Source of the DNA: Blastocystis sp. Blastoise
Lineage: Eukaryota; Sar; Bigyra; Opalinata; Blastocystidae
DNA length: 64,000 bases
Direction of reading: 5' to 3'
Assembly (NCBI GenBank): GCA_039096225.1
Contig: JBBPEB010000032.1
Location: 1,089,501 to 1,153,500, forward strand
Position numbers and translations under genes: made by a program. Shown piece by piece: positions 762 to 59,462 of this stretch. The notes below the pieces were generated by a model. The model did not search any database. It saw only the letters and a list, made by a program, of their open reading frames with translations, and was not told where the DNA came from. Within the stretch, counting starts at the first letter, position 1. The number at the start of each line of letters is the position of its first letter.

Positions 762-2397
762 TTAGTGTTTATTAATTGTATTTTTAACTTCGTCATAACA
801 AATTTTGAGGTTTTCAATGGTTGTTTTATTATTTCTTAAGATATAATTTGTAGCTTTTAATTGGTCCACCTTAGGACTCCACATATATTCCTATATAATT
901 GTGTTTTGAAAGTTAAAAAGAAATATAAGGTTAGAATATATAAGAATCTAATTAGAGGCATTGTTAGAAATACCCAAAAAAACCATAATTATTTTAACCT
1001 GCCCAAAAAAAAATCGAATTGTTAGAAATACCCAAAATCTTTCAAAATTTTTGTTAAAATACCCAAAATTTTTACAAAATTGGTAGAAATACCCAACTGT
1101 TTATTTTAGACTCTAAACGATTGGTGGTTTGAAAACACAAATTCTTATAAACCAATTAAAATTCTTTTTATTTCTTTTGTCATTATTAGAAAAAATATAC
1201 TCAAGAATATATTTATATTTTCTTTATTAAAGCTTACATAAAAATTTTGTAGTAATTAAAACATAAGAAATATTTTAATAGATTATTATAATAATTTAGA
1301 AAAGTAGTTATTTAATTTAAGATAAGCATTTTTATTTACAAATTAAATATAATTATCTCAAATTTTTGGATTAAGGATAGTATAAATACTGCAGACACTT
1401 ATATCGACTGATTAGTGTCATTTATAGTGTAATAATATATTGTATTGCTCTCGAATAAAGCTTTTAAAAACTACAACGTAAGTTCTCATGATTTTTCATT
1501 AATTAATCACTATAAAAATGAAATTTGTTGTCCAGAATCACAAGAATATACTTTATTTTAATTTTGACATATTTAGACGATTAAAGCTTTAATTACTGCA
1601 TATTTAACAACAAAGATATCTGTAAATCAATATTAAATTCATGTTAATTATTTTTATGTTATAATTTGGTAACTGATTCAGTTCAGCCACAACCAGAAGT
1701 TGAAATATGTTTTGGTTTGATTAAGGTGAACTATCATAAGTTTAAAGATAGTAAATAAATAACAAAATTTGAGACTGTAAAAACATATGGAGTCAAAATT
1801 ATGTATGTAAAAAGTTTCAACTAGAAAATGTAGTTTTACTATATATGTAAAAGCTAGGGTATCGAATAAAAAAACAAAAAACCCCAAAAAAGAAGACTTG
1901 CTTACAGATGTTACATTTCAAATTACCCGTTTATGTTCCATTTCCAAGGTGATGATGTTTCTGGATGGGTAGTCAAAAGATATTGTTGTCACGACTCTTC
2001 TGAGCAAACTTAAATAAATAAATTATATTCTTATATTAACATATTTATAGAAATGCAATCGTTTGTATATATTATATATCAAATGAAACAAAAAGCAAAA
2101 AATAGATTATAAGTTGTTAAAAAATGTTAAAAATAAATTAAATGATTTAAAAGATAATACTAAACAATATATAGTGCTAAAAGAAAGAATAAAAGAAAAC
2201 AAATTAGACATATCATATGAACTATTAATATTTTTAATCAAGAATATATATATATGTATTACATGATTCTACATAAATATATTAATATATTAGATTTTCT
2301 ATTTTATACACAATATTTAATATATATAAATTTATATATATATGTATACATGTATACTATTCAATACATATGTATATCTATTCTATATACATATACA

Positions 2398-2432
<35 letters not shown>

Positions 2433-4530
2433 ATATATATATATATAGCATTCTATACATATGCTTATTTATATCTATATATAGAATTCTAATATATCCG
2501 ATTAAGTATATATATATATTCAATATATATATAATATATATTTTTCTATATATGTTATTCTTCATACTAATAAAAGTAACATATATACACAATTCTATTT
2601 ATTCTTTTATATATCAATATATATATAATTCTATATATCAAATATTGTGTATAGCGTTTTAAAAAATGAGAATTCAACTTCAATTGAATGAAAAAAACGA
2701 TTCTTAGAATAATAGGAATAGGAAAATTATAATAAGAAGTGGTAGTAATATACGTAAATGAAGAATGATAATAGAAGTTGATAAAAAAGTAGCATCACAA
2801 GTAAAATGAGAAAGAGAAAAAGTAGAAGTAGAAGGACAAGGAGATATAGAAGGACAAGGACAAGGACAAGGACAAGGACAAGGACAAGAATAAGACGATG
2901 GAGAAGGACAATGATAAGGCGAAGAAGAAGAATAAGAATAAGACGAGTGAGAAGGACAAGAAGAAGAAGAAGAAGAATAAGATGAGGGAGAAGGACAAGG
3001 ACAAGGACAAGAAGAAGGACAAGGACAAGGGCAAGGACAAGGACAAGGACAAGAAGAAGGACAAGGACAAGGACAAGAAGAAGGACAAGGACAAGGGCAA
3101 GGACAAGGACAAGAAGAAGTAGAAGGAGAAGGAGCAGGACAAGATAAAGGACAAGAAGAAGAAGAAGAAAAAAAAAAAAAAAAAAAAAAACATCAGTAGA
3201 AGATAAGAATAAGTAGAATGAGAATGATTAGAAGTAGAAGTATAAGGATAATATAGAAAAAGAAGACGAAGAAGGGATAATATGTGGGTATAGAAGAAGA
3301 AATATGAGAAAAATAGTGGAAAAAGAAGAGACTCAAAAGAGAATAGAAGGAGAGGAGCGAAATATGAATAAAAAGGAGAATAGGAAAGAGAAAGATAAGA
3401 AGGAGAAGAAGAAGGATAAGGATAAGAAAATAAGAATGACAAAGAGAATGAGGAGAGGAAATAGAAAAACGAGAAAAAATGAAGGAAAAAAGAAAGAGAA
3501 GAAGAAGAAGGAAAAGTGAAATTATAAAGCGAAGAAGAAACAGAAAGAGAAAGAAAATGATAAGAAGAATGAGAAGAAGAAGAATAGGAATGACAAGAAG
3601 AACAAGAAGTACAAATAGAAGAAGGACAAGAAGAAAGATAATAGAAGAAGGACAAGAAGGAACAAGAGAAGAAGGAGAAAAAGGAGAAGGAAGAAAAAGA
3701 GAAGGAAAAGAAGAAGGAAAAGAAGAAGAAGGAGAAGGAAAAATAGAAGAAGGACTAGAATGATGAGAAGTATAAGTAAAAACTAAAAGTAAAAAATAAA
3801 TATAAGAAGAATGAGAGAAGAATATGAAAAGGAGATAGAGAAGTAGACGTATAAGTTGAAGTAAAAGGAAAGAAAAAGAAATAAAAGTATAGTAGTAGAA
3901 ACAAAAGTAGAGATAGTGTAGAAGGAGAAGGAAAAGGAAAAGGAAAAGGAAAATCAATAGAAGAAGAATGAAAAGAAAAATTAGAAAAGGAGAAACATAA
4001 AAAGAAGAAGGAAGAGAAAGAGAATATAGAAAAGAAAGAGACAAAATAGAAGAAACAAAACGAAAGAAGTAGGAGAAGAAGAAATAATATTAATAATAAA
4101 AAAATGAATGAGAATAAGAAATAGAAGAATGGCAATAATGCTAATGGGAATGAAAACAAGAATAAGAAGAAAGGGAAATAGAAGAACAAGGAGAAACATA
4201 AGTGCAAGTAAAATAAGAAGAAAAAGTAGTAGTAGTGATAGAAGTGGATGTATAGCATAAGAAGTAGTAGAAGTAAAAGTATGAATAGGAGTAGAAGTAC
4301 AAGTAGAAGTATAAGTGGAAAAATAAGTAGTTGTATTAGTAGTAGTATTAGCAGTAGTGTAGAAGTTAAAATTGAAAAAAAAGAATAGAGTAAGTAATAG
4401 TCGTAGAAATATGAGTAGAAGTACAAGTAGAAATATAAGAATAAAGGAAAAAATGAAAGAAGCTGAAGGAAAAGAAGGAAATGTATAAGAAGAAGAAGAA
4501 GAAATAATAATGAGGAGAAATAGCAACAAA

Positions 4531-4583
<53 letters not shown>

Positions 4584-7500
4584 GAAGAAGAAGAAGAAGA
4601 AGAAGAAGAATTAGGAAAATGAGATGAATAAAGAAATGTAATAAGGAGTAAAATCTTGAGAAATAGAATGAGAAGTAAAAGAATAATAAGAAGTAGAAAA
4701 CTTTAACAAGTATAAATAGAAGAAGAAGAAAAAAAACAATGAGAAATATAATAAAAAGATTGAGAATAAAAGAAAAAAGAAAGAATTGAAAGATAATAGG
4801 AATAAGAATAAGAAAGATAATTAGAAGTACAAGGAGGAGTATAAGGAAAATGAAAAAAAGAAGTACAAGCAGAAGGAGAAGGTAATGTTGAAAAAGAATA
4901 GGAATGACGATAATAAGAAAGATAAAGAGAAATAGAAGGAAAAGGATAATGTGAATTAAAATAAGAATCACAAAAAGAAAAAGCAGAAGGAAAACGAGAA
5001 AAATTTGATTTACAGTGAGGAGAAAAAGAATTGTAAAAAAGAAGAAATATAATAAGAAGAATGAGAACAAGAACAGGAATGAAAATAAGAAAAAGAAGGA
5101 TACTTCAAATAAAAAGAATAACAAGAAAGACATAATATAGACTAAAAAATGATATAGAAGAAAGAGAAGATAGGAAATAAGGAGAAGAAGAAGATAAAGT
5201 AGAAGAAGAATTAGAGCAAGAACAGAATTACAGAAAGAAAAGTAGAATGAAAATAAGAAAGAGAATAGGAATATAAATAAGACGTAGAAGAAGAAATAGA
5301 ATCAAAATGAGACGAATTTAGAATAAAACAGAATATGTAAAGTAGATAAATACGGAGAATGAGAAATGAGAAGTGTATAAATAGAATAAAAATAACTAGG
5401 CGAACAAGTAGAAGAAAAGCAAAAAAAGAAGAATCTGGAGAAGAATCAGAATAAGAATAAGAATATGACTGCGAAAGTAATAGTAGAAGTATAAATAGAC
5501 TTATACTTAGAAGGAGAAGGAGAAGTAGAAGAAGAAGCATAATATGTATAAGTATAAATAGAAGAAGTATAGTATAAAGAAAATAAGAGAATAAAAAGGA
5601 GAATAAATGATATAAGTATAGTATAAATAGAAGAAGCAGAAAGAGAATATGAATAAGAATCGATAAAATGTAAGTATAAGTATAAATAGAAGAAAAAATA
5701 AAAGTAGAACAAGAATAGGAATAAGAATTAGAATTGAAAGAATATAATATGAAAAATAATAATAAGAAGTTGTATTAGTAAAAGTAGATGTAAAATGATG
5801 AATATAAGTTGATAAACTAGAAGTAGAAGAATAAGTTGATAAACAAGAAGTCTAACTATGGTAGAACTAGAAGAAAAAGTAAAAGAAAAAGTAGAAGAAA
5901 AAAAGGAGAAGCTCAAATTGAAGAATAAGAGTTAATAGTAGTACAAGTACAGTAAAAGGAGAATTGAAAGTAGAAGGAGAAATAGCAAGTAGTGGTAGTA
6001 GAAGCAGAAGTGTAAGAACAAGAAGAAGGAAAACTAGGAAGTACAACTAGAACTAGAAGTAGAAGAAAAAGTAGAAATGGACGTATATGTATAAATATAA
6101 GTAAGAGTAGATGTTCAAGTAGAATGAGAAGTATAAGAATAAGAGTAAATAGTAGTAGATATATAAGTATAATAGAAGTAGAAAAATACGAGTAAATAGT
6201 AGTAGAAGTAGAATGAAAATAATAATGATAATAAATAGTAGAAATAGTAGTAGTAGTAGAAATAGAATTAGAAGAATAAGAGTAAGTAGTAGTAGTAGTA
6301 GAAGTACAAGTAAAAGTAACAGTAAAATTATAATTACAAGTAGAAGAATAAAAACACGAAGGAAAAGAAGTTGAAGGACACGAAGTACAAGTAAAAGAAC
6401 TAGAATTGAAATAAGAAAGGAATGAAAATAATAATGATACAAAAAAGTGAAAAGAAGAAGAAGAAGAAGTAGCATGAGATGAATAAAGAAAACGAAAAGG
6501 AAGTAGAATAATAAGAAAAAGAATGAGAAGTGAAATAAGAAGAAGAATAAGAAAAGGAGATAGAATTAATATAAATAGAAGGAGAATAAGAAGTAGAAGT
6601 AGAAGTAGAAGTAGCAAGATAAGGAGAAGTATAATAAAGAGAATGAGAATGAGAATGAGAATGAAAAGAAAAAGTAAAATATGAAAGATAATAAGAATAA
6701 GAATAAGAATAAGAATAAGAATAAGAAGAAAAAGTAGAAATACAAGGAAGAGAGAGGAAAATGAAGATAAGAAGTAGAAGCAGAAGGAGATAATGAGATT
6801 GAAGAAAAAATATGTTGGAGAACAATAATAAGCCTGATAATGAAAAATAGAATGAAAAGGAGAATTCGAAGTAAATTAATAGGTATATGAAGAATAACAA
6901 GAAGCAGAATGAAAATAAGAAAAATTAGAATTAGAATAGAAGAATGGAAATTGTAAAAAGAAGAAATAGAATGAGAAGAGTGAAAACAAGGAGACGAATG
7001 AAAACAAGAAGAATTAAAACAAGAAGAATTAAAACAAGAAGAATTAAAACAAGGAGAAGGACGATACAAATAAGAAGAAGAAAAAGAGAATAGAGAGAAG
7101 AAATGATATAGAAGAAGGAAAAGATAGGGAACAAGAAGAAGAAGAAGAAAACCAGAATAAATAGAAGGAAAAGTAGAAGGAAAAAAGAAAGATAATAAGA
7201 ATTAAAAGGAAATGCAGAAGGAAAATGAGATTAATTTGGAGAAAAAAAAACATGTAAAAGTAGAAGAATATGGAGAATAAAAAAAGGGAAGCATACGAGT
7301 AGAATAAAGAGAACTAGACAAGCAAGGAGAAGAAAGTAAAATAAGAAGAATTTAGATAAGGATAAGAATAAGAATAAGGATAAGAATAAGAACATGACAA
7401 ATAAAGTAGTAGTAGAAGCATAAGAGATGTATAAATAGACTTAGACTTAGAAGTGGAAATAGAAGGAGAAGGAGAAGGAGAAGGAGAAGGAGAAGGAGAA

Positions 7501-10500
7501 GGAGAAGGAGAAGGAGAATAAAAATGATAACAATAAGTATAAGTAGAACCATATGTATAAGGGCAACAACAAAAGATACGAATATAGGAGAAGGAGAAGA
7601 GAAATGAAAATTTGAAGTAGAATGAGAATGAAAATGAAAATAAAAAGTCGTTGAAAAATCAGAATACTAACGAGGAGAAGATAAAGAGGTGTAAAGATAA
7701 TATAATAAAAACAAGAAATAGAATATAAATAAAAATAAGAATAGCAAGAATAGAAAGAATAGCAATAATAAGAAGAATAAACAGAATAAAAAGGAGAAGA
7801 AGAAGAAGATGGAGAATAATAATAAGTGCAAGGAGAAAGAGAAAGAGTGAATAATGAAAATAAGAATAGTTGAATAAAACTAAGATGAAGAATTATAACA
7901 AAAACAGGAAGAAGAAGGAAAATGATAAGAAGAAGAATTAGAAGATGAATAAAAAAACAAAGAATAGAATAAGGAGTATGTTAAGCAGAAGTAAAAGTAA
8001 AATAAGAATAAGATGGAGGAATAGAATCATAATACTAATAACAATTAGAAGAAGAAATATGATAAAGAAACTAGGCTAATTAGAAGAAAAAGAATAGTAC
8101 TATTGAAAATAAGAATAAGAGTAACAAAGAAATATGTACAAAGAAAAATGAGTAAAAAGTATACTAGAAGTAGAATATAGAGAGAAAGACTATGATAATA
8201 TAATGTATAGAAGAAGAAGAAGAAGAAGAAGAAGAAGGAGAATAAGAAGAAAAATGACATGAAGTAGAAGTAGAAGGAGAATAATAGTTAAAAGGATAAT
8301 GTGAATAAGAATATGAAATGAATAATAATAAGAAGAAGAAGTAGACATAGAAGTAGATTGTGAAAGATAACGAGAATGAAAAAAGAAAGTAGAAGGTAAA
8401 TAAGAAGAAGTAGGTGAATAAGTAGTAGACAGAAATAGAAAGTGAATTAATAAGGAGAACGAAATTAAAAAGAAACTACGAATAACACCAGGAATAAGAA
8501 GTAGAAGTAGAATTAGATGAAAACTAGGAAGAAAAAATCAAAATAGAATGAGAATAAGTATATGGAGTAGAAAGCGAAATTCAACGATAAATAGAATGAG
8601 AATAAGTAGAAGAAGAAGAATAATTGGAGAACAAGAACAAGAAGGAAAATAGGAAGAAGAAGAAGAAGAAGAAGAAGAAGAAGAAGAAGAATTGAAAGAG
8701 AAACAGAAGATAAAATGGTTATTTACAATGAGAAAAGAATGGGAAGTAGAACAAAAACTTGAATAAGACGAAGAAGGCAACGGAGAAGGAAAAAGTAGCA
8801 TATGAAGGAAAGGGAGAAGTAGGACGTGGATAGTAATAAAAATAAGAAAGAAAAAATAAAATATTAGGAGACGTGGAACAAGAAGGAGAAAGTGAGATAT
8901 AAGGAGAAACTGAATAACAGAAAAAATAAGAGACTAAATAAGAAAAAAATAGGAAGTAAGACTAATATAAGACTAAGAATAAATTGAAGAAGGACAAGAA
9001 GGACAAGAAGGACAAGAAAAAGAAGAAATAGCAATAGCAATGAGAATAAGAAGTAAATCTATAATGAGAATGAGAAGCAGAAAGGAAGTATAAGTAAAAT
9101 AAGATGTATAGATGAAAGAAAAATAATAAAGATAGAAGATAGAAGATAGAAGATAGAAGATAGAAGATAGAAGATAGAAGATAGAAGATAGAAGAATGAA
9201 AGAATAGAAGAATGAAAGAATAGAAGATAGAAGATAGAAGATAGAAGATAGAAGAATGAAAGAATAAGTATAAGGATAAGAAGAAGAATTATTAAGGGAT
9301 AAGAAGAAGAAGAATAAAAAGGACAACAAAATAATAGTAGAATTCGTGAAGAAGTAATACTAAAGAAAATGAATAAGGAAGAACTAATATCCATATGAAA
9401 AAGAAGAAAAAAAAATGGAGTAAGAAGTTAATTAGAATGAAGAATGAAGAAGAAATAGCATATTAAGAGAAGAACGTGCTAGAGAGAAGCGAATAAAGTT
9501 CAATAAGCAAGATAATTATAATATTTAAAAGAATAGTAAACTGAATAAAAGAAGAGAATAGCAACTGATAACTTCAATCATAAATTAATACTATCTGACC
9601 AAACTCTCTATAGAAAATTAATAAAAAGTACAATAAGTCTAAAGAATATATAATATTAATAAAGTAATAATATAATAATAACTATTAAGACAAGAATATC
9701 AAATATATATTAATAGTCAGTTAAAATAAATTAGTTATACTATTAAAAGATATATACCTTAATAAAAACTTGAATCATTGCAATTTGTTTTGGTTATGCT
9801 TGGATTTGTTAAGATTCACTAAATAATTATATAAAATAAATAAAATAAATAGATTAAAGTATATATATATTAGAGAAACAACTAAATAGAAAAGTAAAGT
9901 AATTCAATTGTAAAAAATATATTTTTAAGTTAGAACAACATAACAACGCTATGATAATAATAGAGATGTACTAATAGCATAGAAATAAAATAGATATAAC
10001 AGAGAATAAACAAGATGAGAAAATGTAAAATAATTATATACCTTAGATTCATCTTTATTGTTCACCAAGACCTTTTCAGTTGATTTGAAACTAGATAAAG
10101 CTTGTTTTGAATATGTAAACAATAAGCAACCAATTGATCAACTGATTACTATATAAAATTAAATATTTGATGACAGCAGATGATACAAAATATAGATTTA
10201 TAACTAAAAAACATACATAGATTCATTTTATATGTCTATAATGACAATATATGAAATAAATCAATATTTGAATGTCACGAGAAATCATTCTGAGGATGGA
10301 AAAAGCGATAAATCAGCCTAAATAGCTAAACCAACCTCTTTGATAAAAACTGTTTTGGGATTTAGTGAACGAGTTTTAAAAATAATTTCTAGAGATTCAA
10401 ATAATGGAATAAAAAGTCTTTTTTGATATGGTCCCTATTCTTAAAGTTTTTTAGAATTACTTCAATCCGTGAAAGTCTTATTCAGCATCAGCTTAAATGA

Positions 10501-11392
10501 ACTGCTGAAAGAAGTATATTTTTTAAATATTAGTATATGGATTATTTGTTTATTTAGAAGGTTATTTTACACTTTATATTTATATTATATTTTTATATGC
10601 ATATTATTATAGATTAGGAATGAAATGAGCACAGATAATGGACCAATTGGTGACTCATTCTTTTAGGTATGTGTTTATTTTGTGATATTATGTATATAGG
10701 TTTGGAAACATAATCTAGGGAGCCTGATGACGTTGACTATTCAATATTGGAAGAAAACGAAATGATGGGCATTTCCTTGTTGAGAATATTCTTGGTATCC
10801 GTTCTAGTTGTATGTTATTTCATATTTTATTTTTATATTTAATTATTATTTAGGAGATTATTAAAAAGAAAAAAGTAATTGGTCTCCATCTACTAAGAAA
10901 ATTGGTGTTTAGGTCCTTCTTTTGATTTTTATTATTTTATTTTTTATCAGAAGTATATATTTATGTTATTAATACTATATTGTATCTAATTATATAGAAA
11001 TGGCGAGTGATTATTGTTATGGAATTTTTGTAACTTTTCGATTTCAGCACAATAATTATCGAGTCCTTAAAAGTATATAAATATATTAAATAATTATTTC
11101 TATTCTATAGATTTATGGAGTAAATTAATATAATCATATATACAAAAAAAAATACTAGAAGAATATGGTTAAAAAGTATATATTTTTTTATTTTTATTAT
11201 TATTAAAATTATATAAATTTGTTTAATTAAATTTATATATTATAGTTATTTATTTTTGTTATAACTGATGTTCTAACATTGATATATGGTTCAAATATCT
11301 ATATATATATATATTATTTATAAATTCTTAATATTTTATTAATTTATTATATTATTTTTCTATATAGGACTATTAATTATCATTCTTTTATT

Positions 11393-11423
<31 letters not shown>

Positions 11424-11951
11424 TATTTATTTTCGATATATTTTATTCTTATTCATATATATAGTATTATTAAGCTATGTACTCATTAGCTTCTCTACAT
11501 CAATACTACTATGTGACTAGGTATATTATATATATATTTAATTATTAGCATATTATTTTCTATTACTTCTTAATATATATATATTTATATATTAACTAGT
11601 ATTTTTTATATAGAGAATGGGACGTTTCCCTTATGTTATAAACTTCATGGTCATCAATTTTTATATCTAAGGTATATCGTTTTTATATATAAGTAATTGT
11701 TTTATTGTAGTATATTGTTTCAAATTATTTCTATATATTATTCTATTTTCCGTACAATAATTATTTATGTTTTTTATATAATTTATATTATGTACCTATA
11801 ATTACTAATAATATCCTATTGTTTATATTTCTGTTATTCATGTCTCTATAGTTTTATTAGTTATATAAAAACATAACTAGTAAAACTGTAATTACATGTA
11901 TATATTATATAGGTGTTATATAAATATACGAATGTTGCTTTAGTTGAAGAA

Positions 11952-12048
<97 letters not shown>

Positions 12049-13135
12049 GTTATAGACTTTTATTGTATTCTTTTTATATTATTATTTTATACATTTTTCT
12101 CTCTATATAACATATACACAGATATATTTACCTAATATATACTCTTTAGAAAATTGATATATGTTTTATTTTGGAAGTTGATAATATATACTAAAATCAG
12201 TTCATATCAATTGTTTATTCTTAAACTGTATATATATATATATTATCTATCAAAGTCAAAGTTATATATAAATAGAATAATGAAGAATTATCTATATATA
12301 GATGGTCTTTAGTTCTATTACTACATTATTTTTATGTATTTAAGATATATATAAATATATTATATATATACTTTTATATATACTTATTATATAAATATAA
12401 ACTTATAGACTTATATATAGTAATATATCAGTTATCCTTTTATTTTTCTCATGAGTTTTTAAGTATATAGTCTTTTTATCTTATTATATATATAATACAT
12501 TTTTTATAAATTGACACAAAAGGTAATATTATTTGTATATATAATTTTATCTCAACTATTCTTCTATTTAATTCTTTTATATCACTTTATCTTTCTATAA
12601 CTATATTATGTATTATCATTTTATAATATAATTTGTTTATAGTTAATTATATATATATATATATATGTAGTAACAGTAATAACTCTTCTTTTGGTCTCTT
12701 TTGTTCAATTATACTAGTATATACACTATGATAATATATATGTATTCTATTTATCTCATTTTATATATAGTTTTCTATTTATTTTGTTATATTTATAATA
12801 CACTTATTGTTATGTATACTATATTTTCTTTTTGTTTATACTATTATACTTATATCATTTTTATTATATATAGGATTAAGGATATATATATAATTGATTA
12901 TGAATGATTTAGTTTTTGTATTATATTAAGCCTTATTTTCTTGTATATATATATAAATATAGGTATCCTTTACTTTATGTTCCAGTTTTCTTTTCTATTA
13001 TATACATTGATATTCACTATTGTGTATTAATATTATTATATATAGTGTGTGAAGGTATTAAATACATTCTGGTTAAGAGTATATATTTTCATTGTTTTAA
13101 TATATATACATAATATGTTCTTATGTTACATCAAA

Positions 13136-13183
<48 letters not shown>

Positions 13184-13737
13184 TTTCTTTTTTTCATTAT
13201 TACATTTATGTATATATTCATATATATATATAAACTTGTTATTCCCTTAATTAATTCATGTCATATTATTCATTCATTTTTTTATATATGTATATCTTAT
13301 ATTTATTATGTATATTATTATTTATGTATATAGATATTAATCGACTTATAGAAATTATTATAAATAATGTTAATACGATTTTTTTGTATATATTTTATTA
13401 ATATTTATAATAGTTTAATATGTAATATTTTACTATTATAATATTATATTGTGTTTATTTAATTTATTTATATATATTTTATTCATTTATTTTATTCTCT
13501 AGCTATTTATAGAGTATATCTTCAATTTATTTCCTACTATATATATGCAATTCTTATTTATAGTATATATTATATAATACTTCTTTTTTTATATATTTTT
13601 TTATTAGTATTCTGTTCTCTACTTTATTCTTTAATACATTATATTCTGTTATATATTGATATATTTTTTTTATTCTAAATGTTTTCATTATATAGGTTAT
13701 TATTAATAGGTATAATAGATATAAGAGGTATACTGGA

Positions 13738-13777
<40 letters not shown>

Positions 13778-15617
13778 CTACACTTTTTTTATAGTCTCTT
13801 TTCTGCAAACATATATATATATATATATATAATTATATTCGCATAATTAATATTCCTTAGACTGAATATGGTCAGTATCAATCATTAATAGATTGTTATC
13901 AGGTTCAATTCCTGATCTAAGGTTATATACTATATTTTTTTTATATAAATTTTTATATTTTTCTCTATAGATATTCTCATTCATTATAGCCAGTATGAAA
14001 GGGTATATTGAGTTTCATGTAATTGAATAAACTCTATACATCGTTAGTCGCTCTTCTATATTGTTTTTAAATACCTTTACTTAAAACCAAACACATTCAC
14101 AATTACATTCACCTATAATTTTCTATTCAATAATTTATTTTGTTAATCATTCTTCTAATCAATTCTACACACAAATAAAAAATAAATATTCATCAATAAC
14201 ATCTTGAAGTCTATAAACAATCAATGCATTCTTTGCTTATATTCTTAAAAATCATTTCAACTGTTTATATTAATATAATTGACACTAATGATCATTTGTA
14301 ACATTTATAAACTACTTTCAAAACTTTTAAAGAACCTTGACAAATCTACATTACCTAGAAAACTATTATAATTAACTTTAGTTTATATAGGTCATAATTA
14401 AATTCAAATTACTAATAGAAAATTAAAATAACGACATTCTAACTCAACATATCACCAAGAAAAATCAATTGTGTTTGTAACTTCTCTAAAATTGAATTAA
14501 TTAGTGAAATATGTATTTAAATATATGTTGAATTCAAATTCAAACACACACAAACTCACCTTTTCTGACAGTTCTACACATTTAGGCAATCTAGTGACTA
14601 TCATATAATCGACTAATTCTTCTTGCCTTCATCAAGTCAAGTGATTTTCTCATGACTTGAATCATCAATTTTGTTTTATGTAACACTCTATAAATAATTA
14701 ATCAATTAACTATTTTTATTTACATAAATACATACTTCATCAACAACGACGAGACATCAGGAGTAAGAATAACAGTTTAAAGTATTTAAATAAAATAATA
14801 AATAATAAAAAGCAGAAATATTAAGATTTCAATAAAATTTAATAAGTTAATTTATAGTGAAGTTTCAATAATCATATAAAAAATATGATTAATTTCGTTT
14901 TTGTATGTTTTAAGTATATATTTATCTATATATAGGACCTAGGAGTATAGTAGAGTACCTTGCGGTCTCCATTGGCAGATTGATCTAAGGTGGTATGTTC
15001 TCTTTCTCTATTATAAGCTTATATAGGTGATGTAAAATGGTTAAGTTAGATGATCAGCTATTGTCTTATGGTTATAAATGGGATGATGTGACGTCACCAT
15101 ATAAAACTGTTTCTTTAGGCTTTCTCAGTGAGTCACAATGGATTGATTGTGTTTATTGTATCGGTTTTAAAGCTTCCAGAAAATAAAGTTGGTAATTGTC
15201 TCAACAAATTGGTCTTAAGTCACAAAGTAGCACAAATATCTAGGCTTAATAAACAACTTTCATAACTCAAATGTCATCGTTGTTATAGATTTGCTTGTAT
15301 TAATACTCAGATTGTAGATGTATATATTTTCTCTATTTATTTTCTTTATAATTATAATTATATTATTATATATACGTTCATATCTATTATTATAATGTTT
15401 TTAAATATAGTTCTTGCTTTTCTGGTCAATAACTGCTTGGTTTCTTTTTTGTATAGTATATATATATTATTAACTTCTTATATTTTGGTTATATTATATA
15501 AATTTCTTAATTATTGAATATTATTTTTATATATAATTATTATTTACTTTCTTCTATATATTTATTGACTTATAGTTTAAATTATTTCATTTTCTTTTTA
15601 TTTTTCTCTTTTTTATT

Positions 15618-15697
<80 letters not shown>

Positions 15698-18600
15698 CAA
15701 AACTTTTATATATTTGTTTTTATTCATTCTTATTTTCTCCTCTTGTCCTTAATTGGCCTTGTTCTCCTCTTCTCTCTTCCATTCATCTACTCTCTAGTTT
15801 TTACTCATTTTTATTCTTATACTCTTATGTTACATAAAACAGTTATTGTTTTTCTTAATATTACTTTATAGTATGTTTTATTTCATGTTCTTCTATTCTA
15901 TATTCTAGTTTTTCCTTCACTTTCTTCTTTCCTCCATTAATTATTACTGGTTCTTCTTCTCCTATCATTACCTACTCTCTTCATTTCAATCTCTTTATCA
16001 TGATTGTCTTCTTTTTCATTTCCTTCAACTCTTCCTTTTCCTACTCTTCTTCTTTATTTCCTTCTATATTATTACTTCTTTTTCTCATCTTCTTCCAATT
16101 ATACTTTCCTTATTCTTTATTCCTTTTAATTCTCATCTACACATTGTTTCTATTTTCCTTCTTCTTCTATATATCCTTATTTTTTGTCTCCTTGTTCATT
16201 CCTTTCTCGTTCTTTTTCATCTATTTATCCTTCTTCTATTTATTTTAATTCTGAATCACCTTCTCTCTATCTCTTTCTGTTTCTTCTTCTTTTATTTAAT
16301 CTTATTTTTCTTCTGGTCCTTCTTGTCTTCTTTTTCTTCTCCTTCTCTTTCTGTATATCCTTCTTCTATATATTCTTTATCTTCTATCTTCTTCATCTGT
16401 ATTTTCTCTTTTATGTATCCTTATTCTTATTCTACATTTTCTCCATATCATTCTCCTCCTATATCTTCTATACCTCCTTTATCTCCTTATTCTTCGTCTA
16501 TGTCTTCTATTCTTCTTCATCTTTTTTCTTCTTCTATATATATATTCTACTTATTCTTCTCTATCCTTGTCTATATATCTTTCTTCTATATTTTCTGCAT
16601 CTACTTCTTCTTCTATATCTTCTATTTATCATTATTTTCCAACATATTTTTCTATTGTACTTCTTCTTTTCTCTTCCTTCTCCTTCTTTTCTATATCTTC
16701 TGTTTATCTTATTCTTCGTCTATATATAATTATTCTCTTTATTCTTCTTCTTTATATATATATTCTTCTTTTTCGATATATTCTTTTTTTTTTTCGTTCT
16801 TTTCCTTGTTCTCCTTCTCAATCTCCTTCTCTTCATTGATATCCTTCTTCTTCTTCTATTCATCTTTTTCTCCTTCTTCTTCTTCTTCTTCTTCTTCTTC
16901 TTCTTCTTCTTCTTCTTCTTCTTCTCCTTCTTCTCCTTCTCCTTCTCCTTCTCCTTCTCCTTCTTCTACTTCTCCTTCTCCTTCTTCTTCTCCTTCTTCT
17001 TCTATTCATCATCATCTTCTTCTTCTTCTATTCATCTTTCTTCTTCTTCTTCATTTAATCCTTCTTCTTCTTCATTTAATCATTCTTCTCCTCCTCTGTC
17101 TTCTTCTTCTATTTATCCTTCTTCTCTTTCTATTCTCCTATATATCCTTTATCTCCTGTTTTTCCTTCTCAATCTCCTTCTCTATATCTCTTTCTTTTTC
17201 TTCTATTTATCCTTTTTCCACTTTTTCTATATCTTTTGCTTCTTATCTTTCTATATCTTCTCTATATCATTCCTCTCCTTCTTCTTCAGCATCTTCTTTT
17301 TAAATCTTATAATTATTTTCTCTTTTCTGTTTTTCTCATTTTATTCCATTTCATCTATTTTTCTATATCTCATTATTTTCAATATTTATTATACAGAATA
17401 TTATTTATATTTAATGTTTTTCACTTTCATACTCTTTTTCTAATATTATATTTTATCATTCTCCTACATCTTCACTTGTTCTTCTTATGTGTATTCTCCT
17501 CATATTTTTATTTCTTTTCTAATAGATTTTCCTTTATAGTTCTTCTAACTCTTCTCTACCTTCTTTCTTCTTTTTCTCTTCTACATGATTTTCTATTCTT
17601 CATCTTTCTTTTTTCTTTTTTATCTTCTTATCTTATTATCTATATGTGCTTCCTCTTCCCCTAATTCTTCTTTATACATATAAATTCTTTTCGCTCTTTA
17701 TCCTTCTAATCAATTCCTTATTCTCATTTAATTAATATTATTCTTCTTCTTAATTTATTTTCCCTTATTCTCCTTATTCTTGTCTTCAATTTTTTTCTAT
17801 ATTCAATTCTTATTTTTCATTATCTTTTATATCTATATATATATATATATATATACATACTTCTCTTCATATTTTAATTATTTCTATCTGTTATACTTAT
17901 TAATATAATATTTATTTTTATTAATAAAAAGATTTTCCCATTTTTATTTCTTATTTATATTTCTTATTTCATTAATTTATATATATATATATATATATTA
18001 ATATATATATATATTGGATATTATGTATTTTAATATTATTATCATTATTATTATTACTCTTATGCTCTATAAGGTGAGAGGCTATCATAATTAGATAGCA
18101 ATCAGGTTCAACTCCTGACATAAGTCATTCCTTATATATATATATATTGATATTTTATTTAATAAACATTTTAATTATATGTTCTTTTTACACTTATGAA
18201 TGCATTTATTAAATTATTTATAGCTCTTCATCCTTCAAAACTTCATAGTTTCTGAAATGAGTTGTAATCTGTTTTATTCTCAACAGTGTAGCTTATTCGA
18301 AATATGTTAGAATTGAGTTAAATGCAGTTTTAAAACTTAGATTCATTTTTTATTTTCAAAATATACTCAAATACAGAGTTTATTTAGCAATCATTAATAC
18401 TTTAACAACTGTAGTTTATTATTTTAAACTGAATTCTGGTCAGTATGCTCAACATAAGCAACCAAACACAATACATACGCATTCATGATTTTTAAACAAC
18501 ATTTTCCATTTCGACATTTACTTGATCCAGAATAAAACTATCTTTCCTTTTGATATAGTATAGAGAAACTAATACCATATACCAAACAAAACTTGTTAAC

Positions 18601-20096
18601 ATGAATCTCGTCATCTATTAAATATTTTTCTTAATCAATTCACAGTTCATACTCTTAAAACAGTTATTTGAGATTAATATTTATATATTTGTCTTTAAAC
18701 AATATTTTCATGACACTGTAATAGTATATATGAAAATACAAAGAATCAAGAAATCTGTTAATTATCAAAAAATAAGTTCTATTTTCTTAAAACATCTTTA
18801 TAAGATTTATAAACTCATATAATATAAATATATAGATCTTATATAAAGTATTCATTGAATTAACTAATTTGTCAGTAAATTAAAAGTATGTTATATAAGG
18901 TAATTCTATGTTATCTTTTTTAATCAGGTTTATCTTATAGTTGTTCATCGCTTATACGTCTGCTAATCTTATTTTTTAAAACAATTACAGACAATTATGT
19001 TATGTTCCTTGTCTATTAAGTTATTTTATTGAATTAATAGTATAAATACAGGGTATATAACAAAACAAATGTGTATATTAGTTAAAATAAGACATAAATA
19101 TAAATAAAGAAAAATAGATAAAATTGCCAATAAGCAAATTCAAGGAATAATATAGTACAACAAATGAATTTCTAATAGAAACTTAAAAATCGATTGATTG
19201 GATCAAATAGTCAAATCGTAACGTCATAATATGAATTATTCTTTTATTTTTTTGTTAATTTAAATTCTAGAAATACATCTAATAAACACGGTTATTATAT
19301 AAATTAATACGATTGGACAATGAAATCAAAATGTTAACAGATACTTTTGGGTATTTCTACCAAATCATACAAAAAATTGGGTATGTATACAAATCAATAG
19401 GGAAATCTGGGTATTTCTAACATTTTTCCATCTAATTAATATTGACAAATACATATAAACATATATATATACAAAAATATCGTTTTTTTTTCTGTTTTTC
19501 TTTTGATATTATTTCTTCTCCATTCTTTAATTCAAATCCAAAGAATGAATTAAACATACATTTATTGACTTTATCAGCAAATGCTGATCTTACTTCTTTT
19601 ATTATTAGATAATCATCAACTTTTTCTGTAGAATAGAATAAAATAAAATATTTCTTTATTATATTTATTATTAAAATATATAACCAATTGTCAACATCCA
19701 GTCTATTTGAGTCAGGAAAGTGTTTAAACATGTATCTTGCTTGTAAACGTATTTTTTCATCAAGTATATATGGAATATATAACAATAATTTCTATAATAT
19801 ATTGACAATTAAATATTAATAAATATACTTTAATTTTCTTTGATGTTATTTTTATAGAACTGATATTAATTCCTTCTTTTAGTGCTAGTCTTCTTAGGAC
19901 AACCTCTAAATCATTTGTTAAATAACTTTTATTAAACGACTCTATATAATATTATAATAATGTAAAATAATATATAGTACCTTTTATGCCTGGAAATCTG
20001 ATAGAATAGTAAAATTCTTTCACGGCATGCATAATCATCATTTTAAACTTCCTAACTTTTTGTATTTCTGCCTTACTCAGTGTTATAGTGTTACTT
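762..20096 (-). CDS. Unrecognised spliced gene, interrupted in an intron by an 18.5-kb insert
   Basis: Four exon-like blocks on the minus strand: 19981-20096, 19829-19941, 19473-19791 and, beyond the insert, 762-890. The first three join in frame across GTA...TAG introns; the last encodes a 42-residue end beginning [12 protein letters not shown] with a TAA stop. The product is basic and helical-looking, with no domain I recognise. It diverges from the Tnp2 transposase gene only 100 bp away, so it may be the second (TnpA-like) gene of the same CACTA element; that is inference from position. The 5' end is not resolved. The third exon leaves phase 1 whereas the last needs phase 0; a 9-A run at 19483-19491 (minus sense) just before the donor could explain this as a one-base length error. 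Without the insert the last intron would be only about 120 nt. Confidence 0.45.
963..1095. repeat. Left subterminal repeats of the 18.5-kb insert
   Basis: GTTAGAAATACCCA occurs at 963 and 1021, with variants GTTAAAATACCCAA at 1053 and GGTAGAAATACCCA at 1082. Such clusters usually serve as transposase-binding sites in CACTA-like elements; that role is inferred. Confidence 0.6.
2220..2660. repeat. TA-rich simple-sequence block
   Basis: Imperfect TA microsatellite with interspersed TATAC and ATTCTATATA motifs. It borders the polypurine tract and mirrors the TA-rich block at about 17830-18015 on the other side of the insert. The open frames across it encode only Tyr/Ile strings and are not genes. 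Confidence 0.8.
2690..9560 (+). repeat. 6.9-kb polypurine (GA-rich) tract
   Basis: The plus strand is almost entirely A and G for nearly 7 kb, broken mainly by single T or C bases. It is a mosaic of degenerate short repeats: GACAAG-type units at 2840-3140, AAT at 4528-4582, GAGAAG-type units at 7455-7515, GAA runs at 8210-8235 and 8655-8690, and ATAGAAG-type units at 9130-9260. Long minus-strand frames encode Ser/Leu/Phe/Tyr strings, a by-product of CTT/TCC-rich composition. Such tracts can form triplex (H-DNA) structures. Confidence 0.9.
10714..10931 (+). pseudogene. Possible two-exon coding relic
   Basis: An open stretch encoding [17 protein letters not shown] and onward to FLVSVLV (to about 10810) continues, across a candidate intron starting GTATGTTATT and ending ATTTAG, in the same frame as [17 protein letters not shown] and a stop near 10931. 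Composition is far less biased than the surroundings. A preceding ATG segment at about 10626 runs into TAG at its putative splice junction, so an intact gene is not supported. No family was recognised. Confidence 0.25.
11953..12045. repeat. (TA)n microsatellite
   Basis: A nearly pure TA run of about 46 units. Other long TA runs in the window lie at 15618-15695, 21458-21546, 41348-41412, 42440-42484, 51634-51722, 53573-53632 and 54408-54454. Several of these are parts of introns. Confidence 0.95.
13855..13922 (+). tRNA. tRNA-like sequence, anticodon UAA, 68 nt
   Basis: It folds as a cloverleaf. The acceptor stem is CCTTAGA/TCTAAGG (7 bp, perfect), the D stem CTGA/TCAG, the anticodon stem CAATC/GATTG with loop ATTAATA (anticodon TAA, leucine), and the T stem TCAGG/CCTGA with loop TTCAATT. 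GGTTCAATTCC matches the internal B-box. A T-run at 13935-13942 could end Pol III transcription. Oddities: no nucleotides between acceptor and D stems (positions 8-9 missing) and a 3-nt variable loop, whereas nuclear tRNA-Leu normally has a long variable arm. It could be organelle-like, a tRNA pseudogene or a tRNA-derived element. Confidence 0.45.
14930..15186 (+). other. Exon-like islands with a 49-codon open frame
   Basis: An island of mixed composition follows TATATAG at about 14935 and ends near 14992. A GTATGT...TATATAG intron-like gap comes next, then a second island containing ATG at 15037 and a 49-residue frame to TAA at 15184-15186 (starts [18 protein letters not shown]). Codon use looks gene-like against the AT background. 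GTGACGTCAC, a perfect CRE-type palindrome, lies inside it. No family was recognised; it may be one exon of a decayed gene or a spliced RNA. Confidence 0.3.
15720..17700 (+). repeat. 2-kb polypyrimidine (CT-rich) tract
   Basis: The plus strand is mostly T and C with degenerate CTT, TTCTCC and TTCTTC units and a near-pure TTC run at about 16878-16925. It is the strand-inverted counterpart of the 2.7-9.6 kb polypurine tract and is followed by a TA block, as that one is preceded by one. Long Ser/Phe/Leu frames across it are compositional. Confidence 0.9.
17701..19342. other. AT-rich right part of the insert
   Basis: TA-rich simple sequence lies around 17830-18015, then the tRNA-like sequence at 18058. 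About 1.2 kb of AT-rich DNA with no supported gene runs on to the right-end repeats. Confidence 0.6.
18058..18125 (+). tRNA. tRNA-like sequence, anticodon AAU, 68 nt
   Basis: Same length and plan as the sequence at 13855. The acceptor is TCTTATG/CATAAGT (6 of 7 pairs, outermost T-T mismatch), the D arm CTCT/AGAG around an 8-nt loop with GG, the anticodon stem CTATC/GATAG with loop ATAATTA (AAT, isoleucine-type), the variable loop CAA, and the T arm TCAGG/CCTGA with loop TTCAACT. GGTTCAACTCC fits the B-box. It too lacks the two bases linking acceptor and D stems. A tRNA gene, tRNA pseudogene and tRNA-derived repeat are all possible. Confidence 0.45.
19347..19421. repeat. Right subterminal repeats of the 18.5-kb insert
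   Basis: Three inverted copies of the end motif: TTGGGTATTTCTACC at about 19348, TTGGGTATGTATAC at about 19378, and the terminal TGGGTATTTCTAAC ending at 19421. They mirror the left cluster at 963-1095. Confidence 0.6.
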
Positions 20097-20194: not shown

Positions 20195-21453
20195 ATGGCA
20201 ACAAGAGGATTTGGTTCACAAGGCTATAAAGCCAAACGAAAAAGTAATTTAATTATTATTATAACTATATATCTAGATATTTCAGTTGCAGATCTGAATG
20301 ATGGATCTCATCATCATATGTTTAATGAAGAATCTAATGATTATAGTAGTATAGAAACTAATGACTTTAATGAAGAACCAAATAAAACCATAAAAGAGTC
20401 ACTGATAGAAAACATAATTGTATTTATATAACTCATTATTACTAGAAGTATTATGATTAATTATATATTATATGTATAGTATTCAAAAAATTGTATAAAA
20501 GAAACAGAAAATAGAAGAGTAGAAGAAGAAATATATTCTTGTTGGCGTTCCTTAACAATAAGTAAAGCTAAGATTAGAAATATATACAAATTAGTTAACT
20601 CTATTCAGAAACTAGCAGCACCTCAAAGTATTCCTATTCCAATTCCTAATCATGGTCAGGATATGATAAGAAAATATTGTACCACTCACAGTGAAACACC
20701 TATACATAAAAATATATATATATGTAATAAATGTAATGAGTTACTTGGATTCAATAGTGGAAGAAATTTGATACCTTTAAACGAAATAAAATGTCAAAAT
20801 GAAGAATGTAATATGAATATTGGTATGCTTATATATATATATATATATATTATACATATATATATATTATACATATTACACATATTATACATATTATACA
20901 TATTATACATATTATATGGCTATAATATATCTATTGTATACCTATTATATATCTATTATGTATCTATAATATATTTATTATATATCTAATATATGTCTAT
21001 TATATGGCTATAATATATCTATTGTATACCTATTATATATTTATTATATATCTATTATATATCTATTATATATCTAATATATGTCTATTATATGGCTATA
21101 ATATATCTATTGTATATCTATTATATATTTATTATGTACCTATAATATATCTATTGCATATCTAATATATGTCTATTATATGGCTATAATATATCCATTG
21201 CATATCTAATATATGTCTATTATATGGCTATTATATATCTATTATATATCTAATATATGTCTATTATATGGCTATAATATATCTATTGTATATCTAATAT
21301 ATGTCTATTATATGGCTATAATATATCTATTGTATATCTATTATATATTTATTATATATTTATTATATATCTATTATACATCTATTATATATCTATTATA
21401 CATCTATTATGTACCTATAATATATCTATTATACATCTATTATGTATTTATTG

Positions 21454-21548
<95 letters not shown>

Positions 21549-24092
21549 AACAAAGGTAACTATCTTACCAATAATTCCAAGGATTCGATTCTTGTTATCT
21601 TCAAAAAGACTAATACATGATATATCATATTATACTAAAGAGGAAATAATTAGTATTCTTCAGAATGAAAGTGTTTCTTTGAATCAAATTCCTTTATTCA
21701 TGACAGGTATAAATTTCAAGAAATCTATAAATGATATTATTAATAAAGGTGACATTTTTCTTGTTTTCAGTATGACCTGTGATGGAATATCACCCTTTTC
21801 AGATCCTGTCTCAGATGAGAATCTATCTTCATTTCCTATTCTTATAAAGTTGCTGAACTATAAAGAAATAAGAGAAGCAGATCATCGTAAGTTTTGGACG
21901 TATAGTGTCACAAAGGAATCATTCTCATCTTCAATATTTGATATATTAGTAGAAGAATTTAAAATCCTATATAAAGGGATAGAGATGGATGTTTGTATAA
22001 ATGATAGAATAGAAAAGAAAACAGTAATTGGATTATTATTACATACATATGGAGACTGTGCTGCCATTACGAAAGTTGCAAACTTTACAGGATCCTCATC
22101 CCTTTATCCATGTAGATGTTGTGAGTTAAGATGGTGCAGAAAGCAAAAACATTTTCATCAAGGCATAAAATGTACATATAAAGAAGTCAAGAAATATGTA
22201 CATACAAATAACACGAAAAAATCAGTAACAAGTATAAACTATCCATCAGCCGTATTATTAAATAATAAATCTACTCCCTATTCTATACTACCACAAATGA
22301 AGGATTATCATACATCAAATGATACTATTATTGAAAGACTACCCAGGAAGGATTCTTTTAAAGATTCGCTTAAATTAGTAGAGTATCCATTAAGAACAAA
22401 AATATCAATTCAGAAAAATAGAAATTCATGTAGTGATTGTGTATCTTTCAAAGGTATGAAGAAAATTCCAGGTATTCTAGAAAAACTTCCATATTTCGAT
22501 CCATCAACTTGCTATTGCATCGATACGATGCACTTGTTCAATAATGTTTCTACGCTAATTATTAATTTGCTGTTTGGTTTTAATACTAAACAATATGCTA
22601 ATAAATTATCCAGGAAATATTTCAGTAACGGAGAGAAGTATATTAAACATTTTTCATTAAATCCTACAAATATGTCCATTATTGAGTCTCGTATATCATC
22701 TATTAATACGTTATATAATAAAAATGAATATGAGTTCAGATATATATTAGATGAAAAGAAATATTATAATATGTCATCACATACAAGAATCTTCTTCGTA
22801 TCATGTATACTACCACTAATAACCCTAGACTTTAGTAATGTTGATTCACCAATAATATTATTAATAGATCCTCTAGCTACAATAATATATCAGGCATTTT
22901 CATATAATGGTAATACTCCCAGCGCTTTATTGAACATATTTAAAGATCAATGTTCTCTATTCTGTTTTCTTTGTGAACTATTGTTACCAAGAGAAATTAT
23001 AAACTCTCAAATTCATCTTATGAAACACTTACCTGAAACAATTATAAATTCAGGATCTTTAATATACTCTTCCACCTATGAATCTGAACGTTTCTACTCA
23101 TTTCTTAAACGATCTACTTACGGAAGAAAAAGATTTAATGAATCATGTATTAGAGTAATAATAGAAAAGGAGGTTACCGATATTAACTTAACTGATAATT
23201 TAGAGGATATAAATGAAGATAATATAGTAAATGATATATTAATTGCTGAACATAATAATGATAATGAAAATGATTTTCTTTCTCGAGAGGACACATTTGA
23301 AGGTTTTACTAATATTCATATTAATCGAGGAGAAATAAATGTAGTAAAGGGTTTGCGTGCTTCTCCAAATATTGATTTATCTGAATCACAAATAAAGGAA
23401 ATAATTTATATTCTATTATCATCACCTAATGACTTTGTTAATATGGCACTTCTCCCTAATGTAGATATAAACAGTTATATAAATATTTCAAGTTGTCTTG
23501 AAGATCATTCAGTTTTTCAAACATTACTTCTAAACTTCAAAAAGATACCTATTGTTTTTTACTCAGAAGTATTAATTAATGAAACCAAAGTATTTTCTTC
23601 TTCAGGAGTTGATGAAGGTATTGAACGACAAGATAATTCATATATAATGTATAATACGTATGATAGTGGAGAAGAACAGCAAACTCATCTTATTAAAGCA
23701 CTAAACTATATTCAAATTGGTCCTTTTATATTGATCCAGAAACACGAGTATCCATTAGCTCGTATGTCACGAACTAGATTATATTATATTATAAATGATT
23801 CTAATAGACAAATTCCAAGAACATCTAAATACTCAACATCTTTCATTGATATTTCCAATATAATTCCAGAAAATTTAATTATAGTAGACATTCATAATAA
23901 TAAGATTATGGAGAGTGACGCTTCTTATGAAGAACCATCAGTATATAATATATATATATATATATATATAGAATATATATATATAATATATAGATAAGGA
24001 GTAAAAGAAGTATTATAAGAACTGAATTTGTTTCAGCAAACTCAGTCATTACTAGCACAGTATTTATGCCACGTTACTGTAGATCATTATAA
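20195..24092 (+). CDS. CACTA/EnSpm-type Tnp2 transposase
   Basis: Five exons join in frame: 20195-20243, 20277-20419, 20480-20822, 21548-23940 and 23994-24092, giving about 1008 residues. Order of parts: an acidic N-terminus; a Cys-rich zinc-ribbon-like stretch (CNKCNE, then CQNEECN); the Tnp2-type catalytic region with MTCDGISPFSD, a CRCCELRWC cluster and DTMHLFNNV; then the HLMKHLPETI...YESERFYSFLKR block seen in the DUF4218 part of CACTA transposases. The enzyme would cut and paste an element carrying CACT(A/G) ends. The third intron is 725 bp of satellite-like repeat plus a TA run. No frameshift was found, so this gene looks intact. The ends of its own element were not located; the CACTGG-ended element at 29954-35396 could be a non-autonomous relative, which is inference. 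Confidence 0.8.
20823..21547 (+). repeat. Satellite-filled 725-bp intron
   Basis: The intron starts GTATGC and ends TATATAG. Its body repeats CTATTATATGGCTATAATA-like and CTAATATATGT-like units in varying order from about 20910 to 21430, then an uninterrupted TA run (21458-21546) reaching the acceptor. Removing it restores the transposase frame (NIG|TKVTILP). Confidence 0.85.
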
Positions 24093-56858: not shown

Positions 56859-59304
<2,446 letters not shown>

Positions 59305-59387
59305 TTCATTAATTCTGGTACTATATATGAAGATCACCAATACAAAAAAAATATCCACTTTTTTCCCGTGAATATTTATAAAAATTT

Positions 59388-59462
59388 GTAGCTACTTGTG
59401 GGTAGCTACTTTCAGCTACCAGGTAGCGACAAGTAGCTGCCCAAACTTGTAGCTACTTGAGC
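59388..59462. repeat. GTAGCTAC subterminal repeats at the hAT right end
   Basis: The palindrome GTAGCTAC or close variants occurs five to six times in 75 bp just inside the 5' (transposase-start) end of the element. hAT transposases bind clustered short motifs of this sort. No comparable cluster is visible at the other end, so the element's ends look asymmetric. Confidence 0.7.

Follow-up and report, generated by a model that had tools for sequence, protein, structure and literature searches.

Mutator-like elements (MULEs) such as MuDR of maize, Hop of Fusarium, Mutyl of Yarrowia, EMULE-Ei1 of Entamoeba and the TvMULEs of Trichomonas are known by inverted termini, target duplications of ~9 bp and a MULE-type transposase with a C-x2-H motif, and those covered in the sections of PMC2725143 drawn on here measure 2.4–7.4 kb. 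We describe a family of elements alike in these features, at 15.7–23.8 kb and mostly non-coding, in the 33.3-Mb, 34-contig assembly of Blastocystis sp. Blastoise; the stretch analysed, termed the window, is the 64,000 nucleotides C21:1089501–1153500 (C labels denote contigs) and holds one copy of the element. In terms of identity and mobility, as distinct from function, the family very probably consists of recently mobile giant MULEs, and the window copy is one of its transposase-less members.

With respect to the termini, Mutyl offers a further likeness in its short, imperfect ends (22 bp), whereas the terminal inverted repeats of maize Mu, at ~220 bp, are far longer than those found here (PMC2725143, same sections). 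Purine and pyrimidine arms and a cross-family module further distinguish the Blastocystis element from those MULEs. Pack-MULEs and the 16–20 kb CACTA elements of Chondrus are comparable as large or cargo-bearing elements of cut-and-paste type; according to the excerpted text of PMC6431247, however, Pack-MULEs stay below 7 kb and carry gene fragments, and the Chondrus elements owe their size to additional reading frames, whereas the bulk of the Blastocystis element is without coding signal. Among the matches listed in open-licence literature, which leaves subscription papers and preprints mostly outside, no paper on such an element was found, and in the main text of PMC5608401 the strings “transpos”, “mutator” and “centromere” occur 0 times.

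A preliminary description of the window had placed an insert at 963..19421, with 14-bp inverted ends, end repeats and an ATT duplication. Indeed, GTTAGAAATACCCA lies at 963 (+) and 19408 (−) with more copies near both ends of the element, and the window holds five matches with at most two mismatches, whereas shuffling predicts 0.47 and none of 100 shuffled versions reaches five. The insert is real, but its termini had been drawn too short: the outermost ends common to all 15 paired copies (see below) are GAGGCATT on the left and GGAAAAAT on the right, and since these extend 8 bp beyond the ends first given, the window element occupies 955–19429. Its termini are short, imperfect inverted repeats in which 14 identical bp are flanked outside by 8 diverged bp. 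ATT belongs to these 8 outer bp, which rules it out as a target duplication; the true duplication is the 9-bp ATCTAATTA, present on both sides of the element at 946–954 and 19430–19438. CACTA (EnSpm) elements, for comparison, have ends starting with CACTA and a 3-bp duplication, and neither the GAGGCATT/GGAAAAAT ends nor the 9-bp duplication agrees with that type.

Searching the whole assembly returned 65 occurrences of the exact 14-mer end and, when up to three mismatches to the extended end were allowed, 67 places that include 17 exact left ends and 15 right ends (reversed controls, 0 in each search). The full ends form 15 facing pairs of 15,670–23,772 bp, on C4, C8 (two), C13, C14, C16, C19–C24, C26, C28 and C31, and are therefore not mainly the unpaired solo copies that the preliminary description had named as a threat to the insert as a unit; other full copies, which it had proposed to look for, exist. 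No facing pair below 15,670 bp was found in the extended-end search, which shorter derivatives with more diverged ends would escape. Inserts have increased the length of at least the C16, C19 and C22 copies. In the C22 copy, the twin of the window copy, a 4.4-kb insert interrupts the element; its inverted ends are CACTA-like and it comes with a TGC duplication. The insert in the C19 copy measures 2,785 bp, has CTGTCAAACGCG as its inverted ends and lacks any open frame of at least 70 amino acids.

A transposase is carried by seven of the 15 paired copies and missing from the other eight. The reading frame of subfamily A matches the Pfam families MULE (PF10551; 41.3 bits, cut-off 27.6, E-value 2.2e-10) and SWIM (PF04434; 33.3 bits, cut-off 19.6, E-value 3.3e-8), and an N-terminal match of the family transposase to DBD_Tnp_Mut (E-value 0.0066) stays at 16.5 bits, under the cut-off of 25. 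The family transposase matches a protein on record for Blastocystis sp. Blastoise, a stramenopile, with 100% identity across 94% of the query. A six-frame search of the assembly with the transposase gave 32 matches, comprising 25 weaker ones and seven that are stop-free and 100% identical over 642 amino acids (C8, C13, C14, C19, C20, C23 and C31). The 642-amino-acid stretch has no match on C21: the window copy is not autonomous and retains only part of a zinc-finger exon, so that “overgrown non-autonomous element”, one of the readings first offered for it, was the right one, sisters with transposase being present. Residues D484, D549, C570, H573 and E647 are invariant among four aligned transposase proteins (two of them fragments), and we take D484, D549 and E647 to be catalytic. 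Compared by eye to the 25-residue signature given in the part of PMC2725143 used here, the family transposase deviates at two positions and fits in the D, G and C-x2-H parts. The window copy is very probably a non-autonomous giant MULE on which the transposase of its sisters would act in trans, probably by binding the subterminal repeats spaced at ~30 bp.

Evidence for mobility comes from insertion sites and from copy identity. The target 9-mer is exact in 14 of the 15 pairs, and the C13 copy shares 99.89% identity with the C8 copy across 20.4 kb. Furthermore, the C16 copy is inserted in a repeated gene. When its flanks are joined with a single 9-mer, the product matches 18 other places at 99–100% (at least 698 of 700 bases), and these are empty sites; at the C16 locus, the match is split in two. 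The preliminary description had also stated that the insert as a unit falls if an empty allele with a single ATT is never found; empty sites with a single target copy exist for this sister insertion but not for the window insertion itself. By eye, the repeated gene (C16:928206–952686 and 18 near-identical uninterrupted copies) resembles the tyrosine recombinase of another mobile element. That the arrangement reflects an assembly artefact or a chance succession of simple repeats is scarcely credible: low-complexity tracts are error-prone and the C21 and C22 copies are near-identical, but the copies have different flanks and their own 9-bp duplications, 18 empty sites are at hand, and the arms align between copies far above reversed controls.

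Several observations count against recently mobile giant MULEs as an account of this family. No empty allele of the window insertion is present in the assembly, where high-identity flanks occur only at C21 and C22, both filled; the C21 and C22 copies are one insertion that was duplicated, so the 15 pairs represent at most 14 insertions. The C4 pair, situated in a TA repeat, is without duplication, and the C13 and first C8 copies lie in simple repeat, where the duplication length is not independent. The left ends at C16:1306514 and C28:365734 have no right end in the extended-end search, diverged solo ends exist, and for the related element on C10 (described below) neither the family end motif, within 25 kb, nor termini of its own were found. 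On the protein side, the predicted transposase structure has a mean pLDDT (predicted local distance difference test) of 33, and a search of solved structures returned 0 matches. Diverged solo ends of the type GAAAAATTG[GT]TAGAAATACCC lie at C8:2339335, C14:1274771, C16:2113744, C26:29882, C26:1245174, C30:16087 and C31:1332767, several of them within ~50 kb of a contig end; no arm was seen in the 10 kb around an older left end at C28:256 kb or in the 10 kb fetched on C30.

Features of the window copy, in positions of the window
Feature	Position	Strand	Basis
Target site duplication, left copy, ATCTAATTA	946..954	.	9-mer comparison across pairs
Whole element, transposase-less copy, 18,475 bp	955..19429	+	
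Left terminus GAGGCATTGTTAGAAATACCC with subterminal repeats pointing inward, motifs 58, 31 and 30 bp apart	955..1096	+	
Remnant of transposase zinc-finger exon, stops upstream	1880..2010 (approximate)	+	translation compared by eye with family transposase
Purine (GA) arm, ~80% purine, period 6 and 3	2607..9617	+	
Conserved block I, coding signal none seen	9990..10720 (approximate)	.	
AT-rich core, conservation below blocks I and II	10721..13846	.	
Conserved block II, no conserved coding frame; no conserved fold except cloverleaf	13847..15400 (approximate)	.	
tRNA-like cloverleaf, start of block II	13855..13922	+	
Pyrimidine (CT) arm, ~80% pyrimidine	15636..18000	+	
Second tRNA-like cloverleaf (ARAGORN: tRNA-Ile, anticodon AAT), present in all seven copies read end to end	18056..18126	+	
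Right terminus (inward GGAAAAATGTTAGAAATACCC) and subterminal repeats at 30-bp intervals	19348..19429	−	
Target site duplication, right copy, ATCTAATTA	19430..19438	.	

The interior of the element is dominated by strand-asymmetric composition. In 300-bp windows, the purine fraction exceeds 0.70 over 2607–9617 and falls below 0.30 over 15636–18000, compared to a mean of 0.50 (standard deviation 0.06) across the remaining window, where just two short outliers occur (27092–27419 and 38775–39341). The TA blocks, AT core and GA and CT tracts that had been described, along with their gross order, are all visible. The term “mirror image” applied to them suits the composition but not the sequence, as the arms are not inverted repeats of each other: GA arms score 113–421 bits against reverse-complemented CT arms and 76–328 bits in controls, and the excess, found in five of five elements, amounts to a factor of only 1.3–1.9, which rules out mutual inverted repeats. 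Mirror repeats within purine tracts are the mark of DNA able to form triplexes (H-DNA); mirror-symmetric 12-mers number 39–386 in each of four arms versus 0–6 in five shuffles, a count that any repeat array would raise.

Between copies, by contrast, arms of the same kind align with 669–6336 bits (GA; reversed controls, 123–525) and 353–3059 bits (CT; reversed controls, 109–341) in ten pairs each. All seven copies read end to end (C4, the first on C8, C13, C16, C19, C21 and C22) contain a purine arm, an AT core and a pyrimidine arm, in either orientation, and the four of these without transposase (C4, C16, C21 and C22) have kept their arms; the other eight pairs are known from their lengths and from two conserved blocks, I and II, which are present in 15 of 15 pairs. 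The fetched part of a second C16 element likewise runs into a purine arm. All five parts, namely the purine arm, block I, the AT core, block II and the pyrimidine arm, belong to the element as internal DNA that its copies have inherited. A coding role of the arms was considered and rejected. Open frames exceed all 100 shuffles in the CT arm of three of five elements and in the GA arm of one of five, but most insertions and deletions within the CT frame have lengths not divisible by three (divisible in 1 of 9, 3 of 8, 3 of 12 and 4 of 18), and changes are not in excess at third codon positions.

This module is not confined to one family. An element on C10 whose transposase is ~39% identical to that of the family has the same arm-core-arm order, and from ~13.0 to 22.0 kb of the fetched C10 stretch (~9 kb) it is 0.81–1.00 identical to the C4 and C16 copies; of 18 half-kilobase windows, 13 reach 0.92 or more versus C4 and 12 do so versus C16. 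Identity drops to 0.63–0.81 in the adjoining 8–13 kb and 22–23.5 kb, and no match is seen before ~7.9 kb, the site of the C10 transposase; from high identity in ~9 kb and lower identity beside it, we infer that the module has been exchanged between MULE families. The window copy is itself a mosaic, its first 2 kb being 0.98–1.00 like C4 and 0.64–0.84 like C13 where aligned, and part of its core being 0.93–0.98 like C13 and 0.64–0.78 like C4. Judged from these sequences, which do not give a direction, both mosaics would stem from recombination between families.

Blocks I and II are better conserved than the core that they flank. Block I was found at 24 places (nearly whole at 20, as a 308-bp piece at four), and block II adjoins it at each of the 24, with one more long block II match at a contig end; as 40 of 223 block II candidates were scored, the block II count is a lower bound. 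The start-to-start spacing of the blocks is 2.8–2.9 kb at the four most diverged places and 3.7–4.0 kb at the other 20. When C10 is compared with C13, identity is 0.80–0.94 in block I and 0.77–0.93 in block II, against 0.52–0.82 in the core between them. Exchange could have raised the identity of the blocks, although one exchange alone would not leave the core below both flanking blocks. No consistent reading frame was seen in block II, and structured RNA along it was discounted, z falling below −3 in only two of 50 windows, both at the cloverleaf.

Deletion derivatives of transposons usually shrink. All 15 paired copies here exceed 15 kb, and the retained part, which is non-coding, seems to move from one family to another. 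The best guess at a function, though one more likely false than true, is a cis-acting structural or chromatin role through which the arms would serve an element of ~20 kb. Arms kept in all four transposase-less copies read, both blocks in 15 pairs and the lack of any short pair speak for such a role; the youth of the copies speaks against it, as do a related MULE on C15 with no arms in 24.5 kb and a relative on C23 with none in an 11.6-kb slice. Nor is a purine-constraint signature seen, since the transition/transversion ratio of the GA arm (1.07) is close to that of the core (1.14), with 1.05 in the CT arm and 1.22 at the right end, in a low-power test limited to well-aligned columns.

At least as probable as a cis role, and in our judgement evenly balanced between true and false, is that the arms and blocks are functionless ballast, a satellite-like filler that young elements carry along passively and that ordinary recombination reshuffles, the identity of the family being unaffected. 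The degenerate period-6 and period-3 repeats of the GA arms fit this account, as do the arm ratios equal to that of the core (a point of little power) and the armless relatives on C15 and in the C23 slice, and the 99.89% identity of the C13 and C8 copies implies that short derivatives may have lacked the time to form. Ballast accords less well with blocks that are more alike between C10 and C13 than the core they enclose, with their start-to-start spacing and with the retention of arms in transposase-less copies. A more far-reaching version of the cis role, which we consider unlikely, draws on analogy: the module might be a portable organiser that lets MULE transposases move elements of ~20 kb or keeps these unsilenced, passing between families as a unit, somewhat like the central site of phage Mu. 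Phage Mu is a functional analogy only, being likewise a transposing DNA of great length that has a special site, the gyrase site, at its centre (PMC10052514 and PMC3820752, in the parts drawn on here); it differs in being a bacterial phage with a mechanism that is unrelated as far as known. According to the excerpted review PMC6431247, the efficiency of DNA transposition falls beyond ~6 kb. Should the module be required in cis, it offers a handle on how large DNA transposons evade this size limit; should it not, it clearly exemplifies how satellite-like DNA spreads within transposons when modules are exchanged.

The cloverleafs were compared across ten distinct sequences, of which block II copies supplied six and other parts of the genome four. 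Pairing holds in 96.7% of 240 cells, 14 of them changed on both sides, a level of pairing and covariation reached by 0 of 500 shuffles (the number of pair types is reached by 5 of 500); much of the covariation is contributed by the sequences that lie elsewhere in the genome. Genome-wide, the T-arm motif has 237 occurrences (reversed control, 0), and the cloverleaf family is therefore not in itself a mark of the element. A captured tRNA gene in the strict sense was dismissed: Rfam gives no tRNA match to the cloverleafs at E-values up to 1, although ARAGORN calls the one at 18056 tRNA-Ile. Rfam at gathering scores gave 0 matches. The loop of the block II cloverleaf differs between copies, which speaks against decoding. 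Among the first 100 T-arm motifs listed, 28 same-strand versus three opposite-strand pairs lie 4.0–4.5 kb apart, and since same-strand pairs are common elsewhere, a pair of cloverleafs 4.2 kb apart is ruled out as specific to the element. Seven such units sampled at mid-unit have no pyrimidine tract, with purine fractions of 0.48–0.64, and resemble by eye a multi-copy gene family. Some cloverleaf pairs surround what appears by eye to be a cysteine-rich multi-copy gene family.

These features bear on a further reading, an extension of one raised in the preliminary description (a triplex-forming, centromere- or origin-like locus captured between transposon ends): MULE ends would have taken in a structural locus, be it centromere-, origin- or boundary-like, and dispersed it as they moved. 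We regard this as quite improbable. In keeping with it, the module has an AT-rich core flanked by conserved non-coding blocks and tRNA-like cloverleafs, and this arrangement has been retained and is common to more than one MULE family. The module is not, however, present once per contig: in searches that give lower bounds, it lies on some of the 34 contigs and is absent from many, with several on C8, C14, C16, C23, C28 and C31, which weakens the reading and departs from a centromere as one locus per chromosome, though contigs may not equal chromosomes. Moreover, all 24 block I matches lie beside block II, and the cloverleaf, as a genome-wide family, is no special mark.

Outside the element, the window holds traces of other repeats. 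A long open frame at 21421–23997, adjoined by a tandem array at 20829–21546, has a weak DUF4218 match (20.5 bits, cut-off 27) and is perhaps the remnant of a CACTA-type transposase. Pieces that resemble a hAT-type transposase by eye, with a DUF659 match under the cut-off, lie at 56859–59391 and are split by long AAT repeats. Finally, 35400–36400 is a low-copy duplicated region, with counterparts on C22 (100%), C13 (twice, 99%) and C16 (98%).

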